25,425 bases of DNA from a virus. Where the stretch lies: IMG/VR virus record IMGVR_UViG_3300046010_003549, positions 1 to 25,425 of that record; one strand, written 5' to 3'. Under the pieces are notes generated by a model. The model had not been told where the DNA came from and did not search any database. It saw only the letters and a list, made by a program, of their open reading frames with translations. This document shows positions 3,293 through 22,756 of this stretch, one piece after another (position 1 is the first letter of the stretch; every line of letters begins with the position of its first letter). Made by a program: the position numbers and the translations under genes.

Positions 3293-3583
3293 ATGCCATT
3301 TGAAAAAGGAAAATCGGGAAATCCAAACGGTAAGCCTCAAGGTGCTAAAGGTCAAAAGACTTTGCAATGGGAGGCATTGGGCGAATCAATTACTGGTCAA
3401 CAAGCTGAGCAGTTCAATGACTTCTTGAACAAGCTTTGGGGATCAAGAAACGATGAAGATAAAATGATAGCATCTGAACTTTACCTCAAGACTTTGGAAT
3501 ACTTCAAACCTAAGCAGGCACGCAATACGATTGTGGGTGACGCTGATGCGCCAGTACAAATAATAATATCGGATAAGTTATGA
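3293..3583 (+). CDS. DUF5681-like protein, possible small terminase-like DNA-binding protein
   Basis: The N-terminus FEKGKSGNPNGKPQGAKG (residues 3-20) is the DUF5681 signature (KGqSGNPnGRP). That short motif is found in many phage and mobile-element proteins next to packaging genes. The rest is helical (GQQAEQFNDFLNKLWGS, EDKMIASELYLKTLEYFKP) and ends in a beta-like tail. In many phages such small basic/helical proteins act as the DNA-recognition terminase subunit, and its place at the start of the virion block is compatible. However, the large terminase lies about 21.5 kb away on the other strand, so that assignment stays tentative. The stop overlaps the next start (ATGA). Confidence 0.6.
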   Translation: MPFEKGKSGNPNGKPQGAKGQKTLQWEALGESITGQQAEQFNDFLNKLWGSRNDEDKMIASELYLKTLEYFKPKQARNTIVGDADAPVQIIISDKL

Positions 3584-3804
3584 AGCCAAAAGAATACGCA
3601 GCTGAATTAGTCAAAGGATTTAAACCAATGGTCAGGTCAAAGATGTCTGAAGATGAGGGTAGTGTCTACGCACGTGCGGTTAACTGCGCGTTACATCACA
3701 TTGAGATAGTGCTAACCTTGGATATCCCCACAATGAGTGAAGGGGATGAGCAAGACTTTTACGATTGGTATAAGCTTGTCAAATTAGAACTGCAAAAGCT
3801 ATGA
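3580..3804 (+). CDS. Small hypothetical protein (74 aa)
   Basis: The 74-residue protein has two likely helices: KPKEYAAELVKGFKPMV near the N-terminus, and YARAVNCALHHIEIVLTL in the middle. An acidic C-terminal segment rich in Asp/Tyr/Trp follows. It is similar in style to the small KEYA...LV..F proteins common in phages between packaging and head genes; no function is known to me. It is flanked on both sides by 4-nt ATGA overlaps, so it is co-translated with its neighbours. Confidence 0.65.
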   Translation: MKPKEYAAELVKGFKPMVRSKMSEDEGSVYARAVNCALHHIEIVLTLDIPTMSEGDEQDFYDWYKLVKLELQKL

Positions 3805-4022
3805 AGGTCATATACGAATTCACCGAGGATGACAAAGAGGAGTTGGAGTTATTCCAACAATCTCGCAAGTTGTGGGTGACGTTTTGGGAATTAGAGCAAG
3901 AGCTGCGCAGTTGGGTGAAGTACAATAGTCAAAATCTTTCAGCTGAACAACTGGATGGTGTGGATAAATTCCGTACACGTTTTTATGAGATAATAAATGA
4001 AAATCAAATAAAGTTAGACTGA
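3801..4022 (+). CDS. Small acidic helical protein (73 aa)
   Basis: The protein begins MKVIYEFTEDDKEELELF and is dominated by charged helices (SRKLWVTFWELEQELRSWVK, then a second helix ending NENQIKLD). It fits a recurring type of small Bacteroidota/Firmicutes phage protein found near packaging genes, with no assigned role. It starts in a 4-nt overlap with the previous gene, and its stop shares one base with the next start (TGATG). I see no metal site or membrane segment. Confidence 0.65.
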   Translation: MKVIYEFTEDDKEELELFQQSRKLWVTFWELEQELRSWVKYNSQNLSAEQLDGVDKFRTRFYEIINENQIKLD

Positions 4023-4195
4023 TGGAAGAAAAAGAAGTTAACCCAGCTACACAATCAACATTCACCATCGCAGTGTTATTCGGTATGTGGCTACAACAAA
4101 AGGAGCAACGCAAGAGATTAGCAAAGGCAAAAATCACCGAACTTTTCACCGAATGGATCACCGAACTTGAAAAGAAACTACCCGACAATGAATAA
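4022..4195 (+). CDS. Small hypothetical protein (57 aa)
   Basis: ATG at 4022-4024 lies in a TGATG junction with the previous stop, and the frame runs to TAA at 4193-4195. The 57-residue product begins MEEKEVNPATQSTFTIAVLF. It has a short hydrophobic stretch (FTIAVLFGMWL, about residues 14-24), then a strongly basic helix (QKEQRKRLAKAK) and an acidic-basic C-terminus. The tight coupling on both sides (1-nt overlap before, 8-nt overlap ATGAATAA after) is the main evidence that it is translated. The hydrophobic part is too short for a confident membrane span. Its function is unknown. Confidence 0.6.
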   Translation: MEEKEVNPATQSTFTIAVLFGMWLQQKEQRKRLAKAKITELFTEWITELEKKLPDNE

Positions 4196-4796
4196 AATAA
4201 AAATATCACTTGACTATAACACCATCACGGTAAAGCAGTACGTTGACTTCATCTTGAATGAGGGCAATGAGGTAGGTCAAGTTTCAGCTATACTGAACAA
4301 GCCAAAGGACTTTGTGAGGCAACTTGCACCTGATCAATTGCAAAATGCAATAAATGCATTTCGTTCGATTATAGAACAACCCCAAGCTTCAAAACAAAAC
4401 AGATGGAAGGACTACGGATTTGTTCCCGACATTAACGCTATCTCATTTGGTGAGTGGCTTGACCTTGATAGTAACTGCAAGGACTTCCCAAAGAATCTTA
4501 ATAAGATACTATCAATCCTTTATAGACCAATCAGCAATCAGTTAGGCAATAAGTACGTAATAGAACCGTACACATCAGCACATTTAAAAAATGCTGATGA
4601 GTTCAATGAGATGCCTTTATCAATTGCAAACGGAGCGTTGGTTTTTTTTTCGACTATCGAAAAAGAATTGGTGAACACTTCGCTTCAGTTTTTGGATTCA
4701 GAAGTGACGAGGAATCTGAAGGAGGCGATGATGATGATGGAGGAGGCATTGCAACAAGCGAACTCTCAAGTAAATACGGATGGTTCCACGTCATAG
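4188..4796 (+). CDS. Tail assembly chaperone, short form (gpG-like)
   Basis: I choose ATG 4188 (MNKIKISLDYNTITVKQYVD), 8 nt inside the previous gene, rather than the TTG at 4167. The 202-residue protein is helical, with DUF-type features of tail chaperones that precede tape measures: QYVDFILNEG, NEVGQVSAILNKP, and a middle GFVPDINAISFGEWLDLD segment. At residues 152-154 the frame crosses a T9 run, and the -1 frame after it is open for another 94 codons, encoding a convincing second domain. This G/GT layout is the hallmark of tail assembly chaperones, which bind and thread the tape measure protein during tail assembly. Oddly, the tape measure is 8 kb away. The chaperone role is inferred from the frameshift arrangement and position, not from a clear sequence match. 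Confidence 0.7.
   Translation: MNKIKISLDYNTITVKQYVDFILNEGNEVGQVSAILNKPKDFVRQLAPDQLQNAINAFRSIIEQPQASKQNRWKDYGFVPDINAISFGEWLDLDSNCKDFPKNLNKILSILYRPISNQLGNKYVIEPYTSAHLKNADEFNEMPLSIANGALVFFSTIEKELVNTSLQFLDSEVTRNLKEAMMMMEEALQQANSQVNTDGSTS
4643..4664 (+). promoter_or_regulatory. Probable programmed -1 frameshift (or transcriptional slippage) site
   Basis: T4642-T4650 is a nine-T run. In the zero frame it reads GTT TTT TTT TCG, so 4643-4649 is a T TTT TTT slippery heptamer. Sequence 4646-4653 (TTTTTCGA) pairs with 4657-4664 (TCGAAAAA) around a CTA loop, an 8-bp hairpin overlapping the tract. A one-base backward slip enters the open -1 frame at TTC (4649-4651). The same product would arise if polymerase added one U. 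Confidence 0.7.
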
Positions 4797-4933
4797 AGGA
4801 GTTGGCAGATAGAGATGTAACGAAATTTGATGCCATCACAAATACACAAGCCTCAACCATCTTTGCTCATCTATCGTATCGCATAGATTATTTCAATTTC
4901 CAAAAGCAATTACTGACTAAAAACAATCATTAA
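4649..4933 (+). CDS. Tail assembly chaperone, frameshift extension (T-like domain)
   Basis: This -1-frame segment has no start codon of its own that explains it. It becomes the C-terminal 94 residues of a 248-residue fusion starting at 4188, with TAA at 4931-4933. After a Gly/Asp-rich linker (EGGDDDDGGG), the domain SKYGWFHVIEELADRDVTKF and then DAITNTQASTIFAHLSYRID has the helical W...LA..D..K...I...F..L.Y pattern of tail chaperone T domains in other Bacteroidota phages. The first 148 nt overlap the end of the zero-frame gene, so both frames are under constraint. In lambda-like phages the T domain binds the tail-tube protein while G binds the tape measure; the same division is inferred here. 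Confidence 0.72.
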   Translation, partial: FDYRKRIGEHFASVFGFRSDEESEGGDDDDGGGIATSELSSKYGWFHVIEELADRDVTKFDAITNTQASTIFAHLSYRIDYFNFQKQLLTKNNH

Positions 4934-12582: not shown

Positions 12583-12757
12583 TCCACAACAAACATTCAA
12601 GAACATTTGCGAGATGCAAAAGATGGGCATCAAGTCGAATGCGAAAAGCTACCAAAATAATTTACCAAAATGGCTAACTGGTTGTATCAATATGACCATT
12701 CTTGCTACTTTAATTTGGGGAACATATGAATTAATTAAAATGATTTTCAATGGCTGA
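12575..12757 (+). CDS. Small single-span membrane protein (60 aa)
   Basis: The protein begins MNNPQQTFKNICEMQKMGIK, with polar/basic residues up to about 33, then one hydrophobic segment CINMTILATLIWGTYELI (about 37-54) and a short tail. It overlaps the previous gene by 8 nt and the tape measure by 8 nt, so it is firmly part of the tail operon. A small membrane protein directly before the tape measure is unusual. It could associate with the tape measure or help DNA entry across the inner membrane; neither is shown. Confidence 0.6.
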   Translation: MNNPQQTFKNICEMQKMGIKSNAKSYQNNLPKWLTGCINMTILATLIWGTYELIKMIFNG

Positions 12758-14621
12758 TAATAAAGTAGTTTTAGAATTTGAAGTAAAAGGTAACGGAGAG
12801 CAAAAGGCTCAATCGTTAAGGGCGCAAATGAAGGCGCTCAGAGATGAGTTAGGAAGGTTGCCCGAAGGCACGAAAGAGTTTGACGAAATACAAAGACAAC
12901 TCGGAGAATTAACGGATAAAGTTGGTGACTTAAATAGGTCAGTTAATACATTGGCAGGTGATCCATTGGAGAGGTTAAACAACTCCTTTGGAATGATTGG
13001 AAGTAGTTTGATGTCACTTGATTTTGGCGGTGCGGTTACTGGGTTAAATGGTGTTTCAGGTGCAATAAGTGAAATCAAATTTAAAGATGTAGCAAAAGGA
13101 GTTGAGGATGTTGGAGGGGCATTTGCAAAACTTGGAAAAGCTTTATTAACTAATCCAATATTTTTACTGGCTGCAACAATTGCATTGGTTGCAATGAACT
13201 TTGATAAACTTATCAAACTGTTTCCATCACTTGATCAAGCATTAACTGGTTTAAATGATTCTGAAAGAGCATTGGCAGCATCAACTGAAGCAAGGGCAGC
13301 CGCGAGTCAAAAGGCTTATGAAACAATCAAAAAACAAGATAATATATTAAAGCTTCAAGGATTAACTGAAAAAGAAATTCTTGAGCGAAAAATAAAATCT
13401 GTTGCAATTTCGATTCAAGATAGAAAAGCACAATTAATTAATGCTCAAGAACAAGCTAAAATACAAATTGAAACTGCAAAAAGAAATCGTCAGATTTTGG
13501 ATGGTATGCTTCATTTTGTGACTGGCCCAATTGAGGTTATTGTTGGTATGGTTGATTTGATTGGAAATGCTTTCGGTCAAAAATTCAACATACGTGAACA
13601 AATGATGGATGCTATTGGCGATTTGCTTTTAGATTCAGACGAACAAGAAAAGAAATTGAATGAGGACATTGAAAAAAGTAAAGATGCACTCCTCACAATG
13701 GAGGAGGAATTTGCAGGTTATCAATTGTCCATTCAGGCAATGGATAAAAAGACCAGTGAAAACAAAAATAGTTTAGCTCAAAATGATCATAAAACTCAAA
13801 AGGAATTACAAGAAAAAGAATTAAAGCAAAAAGAAGATTTAGCGCAAAAAGAATTAGATGCAGCCAAAAAGCAAAAGGATTTATTAAAGCAAATTGAAGA
13901 GGAAGCACTTACAGAGCGTGAAGCATTAGCGCAAGAAATTCAAAACATTCGTCAAGGTGCTGAAGCTACTGAAATTCAAAATTTAAGGGATTCATATTTT
14001 ACAAAAATTGCAATTGCTGAAAAAGAAGGTTTAGATTTTTTAGCATTAGAAGAAAAATTAGCGCAAGAAGAACAAGCCATTCGAGAGAAATATGCAGTGA
14101 AAGAAGTTGAGTTGGTCAAAATGACAACTGAACAAAAAATGCAATTGGCTCAAACTGGTTTAAATGGTCTAATGAATTTGAATGATTTACTAACTGCATC
14201 AGGTTTGTTAAATGCGAAACAATCTTTCAAAATAAATAAAGCGTTACAACTTACACAAGCGGGAATTGGTGCGGTGCAAGCGGTGCAAAATGTTTTGGCT
14301 GACCCTACCTTAATTGGTGGTACACGTTTTATAGCGGCGGCGGCGGCGGGTGTTGCAGGTGCTGCGAATGTCGCAAAGATTGCAGCAATGAAATTCAATC
14401 CAGGTTCTGCCTCAAGTCCTTCTGGTGGGGGTGGTGGTTCTATGGGCGCAGTTGGTAACGGTGGCGGTGGTTCAACATCCGCACCTGCCTTGGATTTGTC
14501 ATTCTTGAACAACCAACAAACGAAAGCGCAACCGATACAAAGTTATGTTTTAGCTACTAATGTGACGAGCGCACAAGATGCACAACAAAAAATCTTAGAC
14601 CAATCAAAATTAATAAAGTAA
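12750..14621 (+). CDS. Tape measure protein
   Basis: The 623-residue protein has the composition of a phage tape measure. An N-terminal charged coiled coil (KAQSLRAQMKALRDELGRLP, residues about 19-38) is followed by a hydrophobic segment LLTNPIFLLAATIALVAM (about 131-148), a second one near GPIEVIVGMVDLIG (about 258-271), and a long Lys/Glu/Gln coiled coil (about 300-470). The C-terminus holds Ala-rich AAAAAGVAGAANVAKIAAM and a Gly-rich linker before the final YVLATNVTSAQDAQQKIL helix. Using about 0.15 nm per residue, the tail would be near 90 nm. That suggests a siphovirus- or myovirus-type long tail, and no sheath gene is seen. It should work with the chaperone at 4188. Confidence 0.85.
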   Translation: MADNKVVLEFEVKGNGEQKAQSLRAQMKALRDELGRLPEGTKEFDEIQRQLGELTDKVGDLNRSVNTLAGDPLERLNNSFGMIGSSLMSLDFGGAVTGLNGVSGAISEIKFKDVAKGVEDVGGAFAKLGKALLTNPIFLLAATIALVAMNFDKLIKLFPSLDQALTGLNDSERALAASTEARAAASQKAYETIKKQDNILKLQGLTEKEILERKIKSVAISIQDRKAQLINAQEQAKIQIETAKRNRQILDGMLHFVTGPIEVIVGMVDLIGNAFGQKFNIREQMMDAIGDLLLDSDEQEKKLNEDIEKSKDALLTMEEEFAGYQLSIQAMDKKTSENKNSLAQNDHKTQKELQEKELKQKEDLAQKELDAAKKQKDLLKQIEEEALTEREALAQEIQNIRQGAEATEIQNLRDSYFTKIAIAEKEGLDFLALEEKLAQEEQAIREKYAVKEVELVKMTTEQKMQLAQTGLNGLMNLNDLLTASGLLNAKQSFKINKALQLTQAGIGAVQAVQNVLADPTLIGGTRFIAAAAAGVAGAANVAKIAAMKFNPGSASSPSGGGGGSMGAVGNGGGGSTSAPALDLSFLNNQQTKAQPIQSYVLATNVTSAQDAQQKILDQSKLIK

Positions 14622-17559: not shown

Positions 17560-17964
17560 ATGAATTACTTACAGACAAATACTGCATCTCAAAACCTCCT
17601 TCTCTCTTTAGAGGAGGGGGCTTTGCTTTTACCAACGTTTGAGTATTATTTATTGATACTTCAAAACGAAATTACATTAGAAAAATTTGCGGTTATTCCA
17701 ACGCTAATTAGTACAAATGAAAGAATCTCAATTTTGTCAATTAGTACAAATGCAGATGATGCCGTTAATGGCAGCATTCTCATTACTGAAGGAGGTCGTT
17801 ATAACTACGTTATATACGGTCAAAATTCGGTTGGCAACCTTGACCCTACTTCTGCTGATGTGGTTGGAGAGATTAAGCGTGGCTATATTGAATTTAATAC
17901 GCTAACCGCCTACTTTGACCAACCATCACTAACCATACCTAATGACATCGAATACAATGGATAA
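17560..17964 (+). CDS. Small virion-associated protein upstream of the portal
   Basis: The 134-residue protein begins MNYLQTNTASQNLLLSLEEG. It continues FEYYLLILQNEITLEKFAVI, with a domain ending in GGRYNYVIYGQNSVGNLDPT, VVGEIKRGYIEF and a C-terminal SLTIPNDIEYNG. The YGQNS..NLDPT..DVVG.I.RG pattern is familiar from Bacteroidota-phage proteins located between tail-tube-like and portal genes. The fold looks like an Ig-like beta sandwich, but the role is unknown. An 8-bp hairpin with CCTTCTCT/AGAGGAGG arms lies within codons 9-19 (about 17587-17606) and could be an accidental terminator-like element. The gene overlaps the portal start. Confidence 0.65.
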   Translation: MNYLQTNTASQNLLLSLEEGALLLPTFEYYLLILQNEITLEKFAVIPTLISTNERISILSISTNADDAVNGSILITEGGRYNYVIYGQNSVGNLDPTSADVVGEIKRGYIEFNTLTAYFDQPSLTIPNDIEYNG

Positions 17965-19753
17965 TATCCTTTCAAATATAAAATCAAGAGTCGGCGATAA
18001 AGTCGAAATGGCTAAATACGTAAAGATTGCACCCATTGAAAAGGAAAATGTATCAAGGGGATGGGTAAATTTTGGTGAGGCTAATATGTATCCACAATAT
18101 TTGATTGAGTTACAAAGTGAATCGCCAGTACACGGATCAATTGTGAACTCAATTAGCCAAATGATTGCAGGGAAGGGAGTGAGTGGTGGTAATGATACCG
18201 CTAATGCGTATTTGAGTGGGTTAAAAATTGATTCAATTATACCGCATATATCAAGAGACCTTAAATTATTTGGAGGTTATTATTTGGAGGTTATCTGGTC
18301 AATGGATAGAACAACCATTGCGCAGGTTAATCATTTGCCTTTTGAGAATTGTCGCCTTGCGTGTAGTGATGAAAATGATGATTTGATTGGTGTTTGGTAT
18401 TCGAGAGATTGGAGCGATATGCGGAAAAAGAAAAACACACCGCATTTTATTCCAATGTTTGATGAAGAAAATAAAGAGACTTGCCCAAAACAAGTCCTTT
18501 TCATACATACGTTAAAAATGGGTAGTGAATACTATCCTAAACCTGATTACATTGGTAGTGTTAACTACATTGAACTTACAAGACAAATTGGAGAATACCA
18601 CGTTAACAATATTCTCAACGGATTTTTTCCTTCATTGATTGCGTCTTTCAACAATGGCATTCCATCTTTGGAAGAGCAACATATGATTAAGAATCAGTTA
18701 CAGATGTCCATTCAAGGTGCTGAAAATGCAGGAAAGGTATTGACATTTTTCAATGAGGAAAGAGATAGAGGTGTTGAATTCACAGCGTTTCCAATTAACG
18801 ATGCAGATAAGCAATATCAGTTTTTGAGCGAAGAGTGTACAAAGCAAATTATGATTGCTCACAGAGTCACATCACCTTTGTTATTTGGTGTTAGAGATGG
18901 CGGTGGATTGGGTTCAAATACCGATGAAATGAGAACTGCTTTGTTCATCTTTCAGCGTCAAGTAATTGAGCCTTTCCAAAGACTAATTGAAGATGGAATA
19001 TCCATCATTTGTGAGGCATCCAATGTGGTTGCAACTCCAAAAATTATTTCAAATGAAATTTTGGAAGTACAACCAGTTGAAGCGCAGCAATCAGCAGTAA
19101 AAAAAAAAGTTGAGTGCGAACACCAAAGCGTTTCTAAAATCTGTTGTTCAGCAGGAAATGATTTTACAGATGAGGAAGGTAGAATCTTCATTGATGAATT
19201 GAAAAGCAAAGCGGAATACATTGATGTTGAAGAATGGGAATTGATTAGTGAAGAGGATGTATTAGATCCTGAGAATGAATTAAACTACACCTCACAACTA
19301 TTCAACAAGATGCCATCAATGTCAGATGCGAATGGTGGAGATAAGTCACAATGGGGTGATGCAGGACTTTACAAATTACGTTATGCATATTCACAAAATC
19401 TATCTGCTAACTCACGTGAATTTTGCGTTGAAATGGTAGGATTGTCAAAGGCAGGAGCGGTGTTTAGATACGAGGATATTGAAAATATGAGTGAGAAAGG
19501 AGTTAATGGAGATTTCGCACCAACTGGGGCATCAACTTATTCGATTTTCCGCTACCTCGGCGGTTCATTTTGCCATCATTTTTGGAAGCGTCAAATCTAT
19601 ATGAGAAAGAGAGATTCAAAAGGTAGAATTCTACCCAATGAAGGTCTTGAAAATGATAAAAGAGTAGCTAATAATCCGTTTGTTCCAAGAAAAGGAATTG
19701 AAGGAATTGCACCAATAAATAGACCAGGAAGAGGTTCACTTAAATACCAATAA
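17957..19753 (+). CDS. Portal protein with C-terminal Cys/His extension
   Basis: I choose ATG 17957 (MDNILSNIKS), giving an 8-nt overlap with the previous gene; an upstream ATG at 17942 adds five residues. The first ~380 residues look like a portal: GWVNFGEANMYPQYLIELQS, GSIVNSISQMIAGKG, DLKLFGGYYLEVIWSMD, VNYIELTRQIGEYHVNNILN, the long helices after it, and a late HRVTSPLLFGVRDGGGLGSN (about 300-320). This ring is the DNA gate of the capsid and the docking site for terminase. After a run of Lys codons (A10) there is an unusual ~215-residue extension with REFC (about 485), GGSFCHHFW (about 535) and RDSKGR (about 553), resembling C-terminal parts of head-morphogenesis-type proteins. See the slip-site entry and findings. 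Confidence 0.82.
   Translation: MDNILSNIKSRVGDKVEMAKYVKIAPIEKENVSRGWVNFGEANMYPQYLIELQSESPVHGSIVNSISQMIAGKGVSGGNDTANAYLSGLKIDSIIPHISRDLKLFGGYYLEVIWSMDRTTIAQVNHLPFENCRLACSDENDDLIGVWYSRDWSDMRKKKNTPHFIPMFDEENKETCPKQVLFIHTLKMGSEYYPKPDYIGSVNYIELTRQIGEYHVNNILNGFFPSLIASFNNGIPSLEEQHMIKNQLQMSIQGAENAGKVLTFFNEERDRGVEFTAFPINDADKQYQFLSEECTKQIMIAHRVTSPLLFGVRDGGGLGSNTDEMRTALFIFQRQVIEPFQRLIEDGISIICEASNVVATPKIISNEILEVQPVEAQQSAVKKKVECEHQSVSKICCSAGNDFTDEEGRIFIDELKSKAEYIDVEEWELISEEDVLDPENELNYTSQLFNKMPSMSDANGGDKSQWGDAGLYKLRYAYSQNLSANSREFCVEMVGLSKAGAVFRYEDIENMSEKGVNGDFAPTGASTYSIFRYLGGSFCHHFWKRQIYMRKRDSKGRILPNEGLENDKRVANNPFVPRKGIEGIAPINRPGRGSLKYQ
19099..19113 (+). promoter_or_regulatory. A10 slip site with -1 stop at the portal core/extension junction
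   Basis: Ten A (19099-19108) read in frame as GTA AAA AAA AAA GTT. A AAA AAA at 19099-19105 is a slippery heptamer. A -1 slip reads AAA AGT TGA, with the stop at 19111-19113. The result would be a portal lacking the extension, as in the dnaX frameshift logic. Polymerase slippage by one A would do the same. Only the sequence is seen; use is inferred. Confidence 0.5.
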
Positions 19754-22244: not shown

Positions 22245-22500
22245 CATTGGCATTGCCATTGGTGTATTGATTTGCAGACCTGATTCAAGTAGGGTACAAA
22301 TTGTACCCAACTCAGATACAATCACCGCATATTTGCGGACAATAGACACGCTAACCATTGAACGCACCAAATTAAAGACAATTTATGAAAAGGATATTGA
22401 TACTATTTACCTTCTTGATAGCACTGCCATCGATAGCGCATACTCAGAGGCAATACAAAGACTCATTGAACTCGAAGGGGCTGGATTTTTTAACCGTTGA
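22189..22500 (+). CDS. Membrane-anchored periplasmic protein, i-spanin-like candidate
   Basis: The 103-residue protein starts at ATG 22189, inside the metallophosphoesterase gene (56-nt overlap, other frame). Residues about 11-29 (ALIKAISISIGIAIGVLIC) form one N-terminal membrane segment, followed by a polar, helix-rich region (RTIDTLTIERTKLKTIYEKD and ATEAIQRLIELEG-like C-terminal part). That topology, N-in with an exported coiled-coil tail, is typical of inner-membrane spanin subunits (Rz). The Cys after the membrane span is not in a canonical lipobox (VLIC). Its last 116 nt overlap the next gene in another frame, as Rz/Rz1 pairs often do. Spanin function is inferred from topology, overlap and lysis context. 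Confidence 0.5.
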   Translation: MEKNFTLKTIALIKAISISIGIAIGVLICRPDSSRVQIVPNSDTITAYLRTIDTLTIERTKLKTIYEKDIDTIYLLDSTAIDSAYSEAIQRLIELEGAGFFNR

Positions 22501-22756
22501 ACGCAGGTTAGTTGTACTTGGTGTGAGGTCATTGGATTACTATATTGAACTCGATAAGAATAATCGTAGCATAATTCATACATATGCCCAACTGAATGCG
22601 TTTAATGTCCGATATATTGATCAATTAGAGGAATTAAATGCGGGATTAAGTGAGGAATTAAATGAGGGATTAAGGTCAAAAAAAAAGTGGCGCAATGCCA
22701 CTCTTTTGATTGGTAGTATTTATGTATTTACTGCTGCTATTATTTATCTTCAATAG
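22385..22756 (+). CDS. Secreted/membrane protein with signal peptide, overlapping lysis partner candidate
   Basis: The 123-residue protein starts at ATG 22385 within the previous gene. It has a very good signal peptide, MKRILILFTFLIALPSIAHT, with likely cleavage after A18. A helical polar body follows (YIELDKNNRSIIHTYAQLNA and YIDQLEELNAGLSEELNEGL) with coiled-coil character, and a C-terminal membrane segment NATLLIGSIYVFTAAIIYLQ. The last gene of the lysis cassette in this order would fit a spanin-type partner, but it lacks a lipobox, so it is not a classical o-spanin. Nine A at 22678-22686 form a slippery site before the last membrane segment. It ends convergently, with a 17-nt overlap of minus-strand gene 22740-22940. 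Confidence 0.55.
   Translation: MKRILILFTFLIALPSIAHTQRQYKDSLNSKGLDFLTVERRLVVLGVRSLDYYIELDKNNRSIIHTYAQLNAFNVRYIDQLEELNAGLSEELNEGLRSKKKWRNATLLIGSIYVFTAAIIYLQ

Follow-up and report, generated by a model that had tools for sequence, protein, structure and literature searches.

Two versions of one protein from a T-run frameshift in a large and still unannotated group of viruses infecting Bacteroidota

Introduction

In phage lambda, gpG and gpGT are read from one start, gpG in the zero frame and gpGT as a −1 fusion carrying a small C-terminal domain, with the change of frame made at a slippery heptamer of mixed composition within the late tail genes. Lambda-type G-T shifting is ribosomal and requires no stimulator (PMC5009743), and G/G-T shifts of tail chaperones are described as ribosomal in the literature consulted. 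In Shigella mxiE, an extra U in a T run joins two frames, and there slippage has been shown experimentally (PMC1088944, PMC3711429).

The locus described here lies in an IMG/VR virus record, and the whole stretch of DNA that was analysed (25,425 nucleotides) is referred to as the window. Its architecture follows that of lambda in having one start, a zero-frame G, a −1 fusion that ends in a small domain, a slippery heptamer and a place among late tail genes; a −1 shift towards the 3′ end of G joins the two overlapping frames, and a heptamer of the X_XXY_YYZ form stands in frame (T_TTT_TTT, 4643–4649), as it does in all tracts of the relatives. Unlike lambda, the tract consists of T only (9–12 bases) and the zero frame continues for 25–57 codons beyond the site. 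The gene is also not placed directly between the major tail protein and the tape measure: T abuts H in lambda, whereas here the tape measure gene is found ~8 kb downstream in the same gene run, with five genes between. No homology to gpG/gpGT is detectable. With mxiE the locus has in common a long T tract at which a single added U would link two successive frames so that a longer protein is made, although mxiE is a host regulator gene and its protein is unrelated. Nonlabens phage P12024S (genes 38/39, JQ823122) carries homologues of G (27% identity) and T, and its T9 stands in the same codon phase, but there the genes are annotated as two hypothetical proteins, the zero-frame tail is shorter and no hairpin is present. 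Together with their relatives, these loci define a large and so far unannotated group of viruses infecting Bacteroidota that have a two-version protein from a T-run frameshift. The G/T gene is currently missed or split by annotation pipelines.

Two overlapping reading frames

All features of the locus lie on the plus strand. The zero frame begins at the ATG at 4188 and its stop ends at 4796, giving a G-like protein of 202 amino acids (followed by translation and in a 60-member G alignment), and the tract of nine T (4642–4650) stands in it in the context G-GTT-TTT-TTT-TCG, with the heptamer at 4643–4649 as the candidate −1 ribosomal site. A −1 shift at this point, equivalent to the insertion of one T, produces a 248-residue fusion that shares residues 1–154 with the shorter protein and whose stop ends at 4933. 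The T-like domain thus occupies the −1 frame from 4643 to 4933 (stop included), and between 4650 and 4796 the DNA is double-coded, the zero-frame tail being read against the linker and T domain of the −1 frame. An earlier sequence-only reading had proposed this arrangement, namely the two products with 154 common codons, the T9 tract and an extension open for 94 codons after the heptamer, and each of these elements is present as proposed. No promoter-like site was found near the G/T gene, and no Rfam match was obtained.

When synonymous codons were randomised with the zero-frame amino acids held fixed, the overlap stayed free of −1 stops in 1.3% of trials for the window, and in a median of 0.3% across 69 diverged relatives; the reverse randomisation gave a median of 3.7%. 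Since the −1 frame is open against these odds, both the G and the T frame are judged, on this codon-level comparison, to be translated and under constraint. Independent initiation of the T domain was considered and ruled out: in 67 of 69 relatives the −1 frame offers no start codon on the stretch leading from its last stop to the tract, and in 68 of 69 no ATG precedes the conserved Trp motif. With no start codon available in its own frame, the T domain is reachable only by a change of frame. What is observed, then, is a pair of overlapping frames conserved jointly, a tract of strictly nine or more T, and no other start for the T domain.

Conservation of the tract

Used as queries, the zero-frame protein and the T domain returned dozens of relatives, all of which keep the frame offset and have CGA after T9. 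The isolated Nonlabens phages P12024S and P12024L, at 27% identity, likewise have T9 in the window's codon phase and a T-like domain in the −1 frame. Broader profile scans detected at least 541 and at least 587 related loci and reached a large marine group. The narrow profile found no match in genome contigs; the broader one also matched two MAG contigs (Flavobacteriaceae, Winogradskyella), where the frameshift arrangement holds.

Nine or more T (as T9, T10 or T12) make up the tract at all 350 loci where the match to G extends as far as the site; five further loci were left out of this count because the contig ends before it. Reduced to 172 non-redundant contexts, the tract is T9 in 105, T10 in 60 and T12 in seven, with none shorter than nine; every one of these contexts has a T-like domain in the −1 frame, and none has an in-frame G-T fusion. 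A tree built from 69 representatives shows five changes in the tract's codon phase and eight in its length, with no loss. The sequence-only reading had advised comparing T-run length among homologues, and had named an extension in one uninterrupted frame as a finding that would tell against it; the run never falls below nine, and no relative has such an extension. The programmed −1 frameshift that it proposed is therefore strongly supported by the conserved tract, by the T domain in the −1 frame and by the absence of in-frame fusions. Judged from these comparisons, the frameshift is real and programmed.

The phenylalanine codons of the tract lead in the same direction. The second is TTT in all 172 non-redundant contexts, against a TTT:TTC usage of 684:377 in the rest of these genes. 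With any base but T at the preceding wobble position, the third phenylalanine codon is TTT (28 of 28); with T there, it is TTC in 35 of 42. This compensating change has a pooled Fisher p of 5e-13, computed on rows that are related to each other; a tree-aware independent-pairs test had two supported pairs, too few to give it power. As read from codon usage, the pattern reflects selection for the tract and not codon bias.

Polymerase or ribosome

These observations fit −1 slippage of the ribosome on U_UUU_UUU as well as slippage of RNA polymerase, and the two may act together. In either case one start would give two proteins, most of the product being the 202-residue G-like protein and a minority the 248-residue fusion with a small, T-like helical domain. 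In the polymerase version, host RNA polymerase would add one U to part of the transcripts; in the close alternative, tandem tRNAs would slip on U_UUU_UUU. On sequence grounds we lean slightly towards the polymerase as the main source, a little ahead of the ribosome.

Programmed transcriptional slippage is marked by a conserved A/T homopolymer of about nine bases or more at the frame junction, found here in 172 of 172 contexts, and by avoidance of such runs in other coding sequence, also found here. Runs of A or T of at least nine are about sevenfold rarer than expected in the other genes of these phages (~7 observed against 49 expected), and across related loci they are nearly absent outside the G/T and portal genes. 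Shorter runs of 7–8 bases are depleted ~1.5- to 5-fold in the coding regions of related loci, about equally in all three codon phases, which points to length, rather than an in-frame heptamer, as the hazard avoided. Nine is a common length at which many bacteria avoid A/T runs (PMC1088944). No tract has T_TTT_TTC by itself, even though the phenylalanine codon that follows is usually TTC. It is the combination of this missing site, the phase-independent avoidance of runs, the nine-base limit and the weakness of U_UUU_UUU as a ribosomal site in E. coli (PMC5009743) that inclines us to the polymerase.

A purely ribosomal origin, in which tandem tRNA-Phe slippage would operate by the lambda G-T mechanism on an unusual all-U site and the long run would amount to a heptamer plus coding requirements, is a serious competitor that we hold somewhat less probable than even. 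Every copy offers T_TTT_TTT in frame, known G-T shifting is of this kind and needs no stimulator, and the protein itself calls for additional T's: V, L or I is conserved before the two phenylalanine codons and Y, W, S or F after them, while in the −1 frame F or L must follow. Tract length alone is thus no proof of polymerase slippage, since T9 may equal a seven-base heptamer with protein constraints on either side. Against the ribosome acting by itself, T_TTT_TTC would allow re-pairing as well and still does not occur alone, U_UUU_UUU is weak in E. coli, and run avoidance in the genome takes no account of phase. The suggestion of the sequence-only reading that the site may work by transcriptional slippage is plausible and mildly favoured, by the phase-independent avoidance and the absence of a lone T_TTT_TTC.

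Protein identity and gene neighbourhood

The same reading had called the gene a tail chaperone, and here the architecture and gene neighbourhood fit, while comparisons of sequence and of fold gave no match to a known one. Pfam gave no credible match for G, PHROGs only families of unknown function, and hhalign profiles against lambda G and T were not significant. The AF2 model of G (pLDDT 82.8) gave only long-helix matches, none of them significant, in Foldseek and VIA comparisons with the PDB, and in BFVD retrieved uncharacterised phage proteins, the best match named tail chaperone having an E of 0.15; the model of the T domain alone is poor (pLDDT 53.6). By architecture the gene would work like a G/G-T pair, whether or not it belongs to that family by descent.

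The tape measure protein, the presumed client of the chaperone, is encoded at 12750–14621 (phrog_9483, E 2.6e-10), and no other G/T-type pair was seen beside its gene. In P12024S, TerL is followed by G/T, then by a tail-completion/Neck1-like gene and one resembling a tape measure gene. From architecture and the neighbourhood of tail genes, a chaperone role for the G/G-T pair seems likely, and so does the wider reading that a programmed −1 frameshift produces a tail chaperone pair of this type, whichever machine slips. If it behaves as lambda G and G-T do, the pair would cover the tape measure protein while the tail is being built and bring in the subunits of the tail tube.

The frameshift could instead serve a phage protein other than a tail chaperone, made in two forms, such as a packaging or connector factor encoded beside the terminase. 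This is suggested by the position directly after TerL in P12024S and by the want of sequence or fold matches to known chaperones, but is unlikely given the two-form G/G-T architecture, the tail genes downstream and the lack of a rival pair by the tape measure gene.

Two further observations concern neighbours and candidates. No large terminase lies upstream of G in the window (3293–4188) or in the related locus L019 (9617–10001), while in P12024S TerL is directly upstream. Flavobacterium phage 6H gp10 (BFVD E 2e-3) was set aside, its C-terminal frames having no clear T-tract junction.

The hairpin

A perfect hairpin, TTTTTCGA-CTA-TCGAAAAA, spans 4646–4664 and overlaps the tract, with an 8-bp stem of about −6.5 kcal/mol when folded together with it. 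The sequence-only reading had noted it as overlapping the slippery run; it is indeed present in the window, yet is confined to the window's lineage and is no general feature of the site. Within that lineage, ATC/CGA, the codons that preserve the stem, are kept in 66 of 68 contexts, although ATA/AGA would leave both proteins unchanged and AGA is much commoner than CGA (75:10) in the window's genes, so some selection on the stem is possible on codon evidence. That the hairpin drives the slip in this lineage, as this codon retention and the stem's stability might suggest, is nevertheless very improbable. The stem is broken in two natural variants (L010 and L053) and missing from P12024S/L and all marine relatives, which keep the tract; being so lineage-specific, it is not the general driver. 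It also contains the decoding site and hence cannot be the usual downstream stimulator, and it is still untranscribed while polymerase sits on the T run.

Homopolymers are prone to phase variation through slippage in replication, to decay into pseudogenes and to assembly errors, the last of which the sequence-only reading had named as able to overturn it. All three accounts of the T run can be dismissed here, as hundreds of independent assemblies agree, none of the 172 contexts has a frame-fusing length, and both frames are under constraint.

A second homopolymer in the portal gene

The portal ORF of the window (17942–19753) contains a run of ten A at 19099–19108, situated between the portal domain and the C-terminal domain. 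Among 66 non-redundant relatives (drawn from L359–L375 and L381–L460) the run is A11 in 48, A10 in 15, A12 in two and A9 in one, and in 51 of the 66 the −1 frame stops immediately after KKKS. In the rest of the genes with this tract, which is absent from P12024S, lysine is encoded by AAA about as often as by AAG. By analogy, the run looks like programmed slippage of the dnaX type, which would give a truncated or core portal beside the extended one. Because a second conserved tract is found in the portal gene, homopolymer slippage in the window's lineage becomes more plausible, and the strategy may be common to its virion genes.

Taken further, these phages of Bacteroidota may set the ratios of structural and assembly proteins by RNA-polymerase slippage, T9–T12 fusing the T domain and, in the window's lineage, A9–A12 truncating the portal, a tentative proposal to which we give slightly less than an even chance. 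As the unannotated group is large (at least 587 related contigs) and its T tract never shorter than nine, it would offer a natural test of whether polymerase slippage can replace ribosomal slippage in setting a structural protein ratio.

Some homopolymer and portal variants may be recorded alongside. A run of nine A at 22678–22686 in the window, within a 123-residue ORF (22385–22756, RSKKKWRN), is not conserved in the loci examined. In L407 and in one A12 relative from the L381–L460 set, the portal C-terminal domain is out of register, reflecting either an assembly error or a natural variant. In L362, L363, L365, L366, L369 and L375, an extra segment of ~100 residues (...ESFEPTNEMAAEAELGL...) is found just after KKKV, past the poly-A tract.
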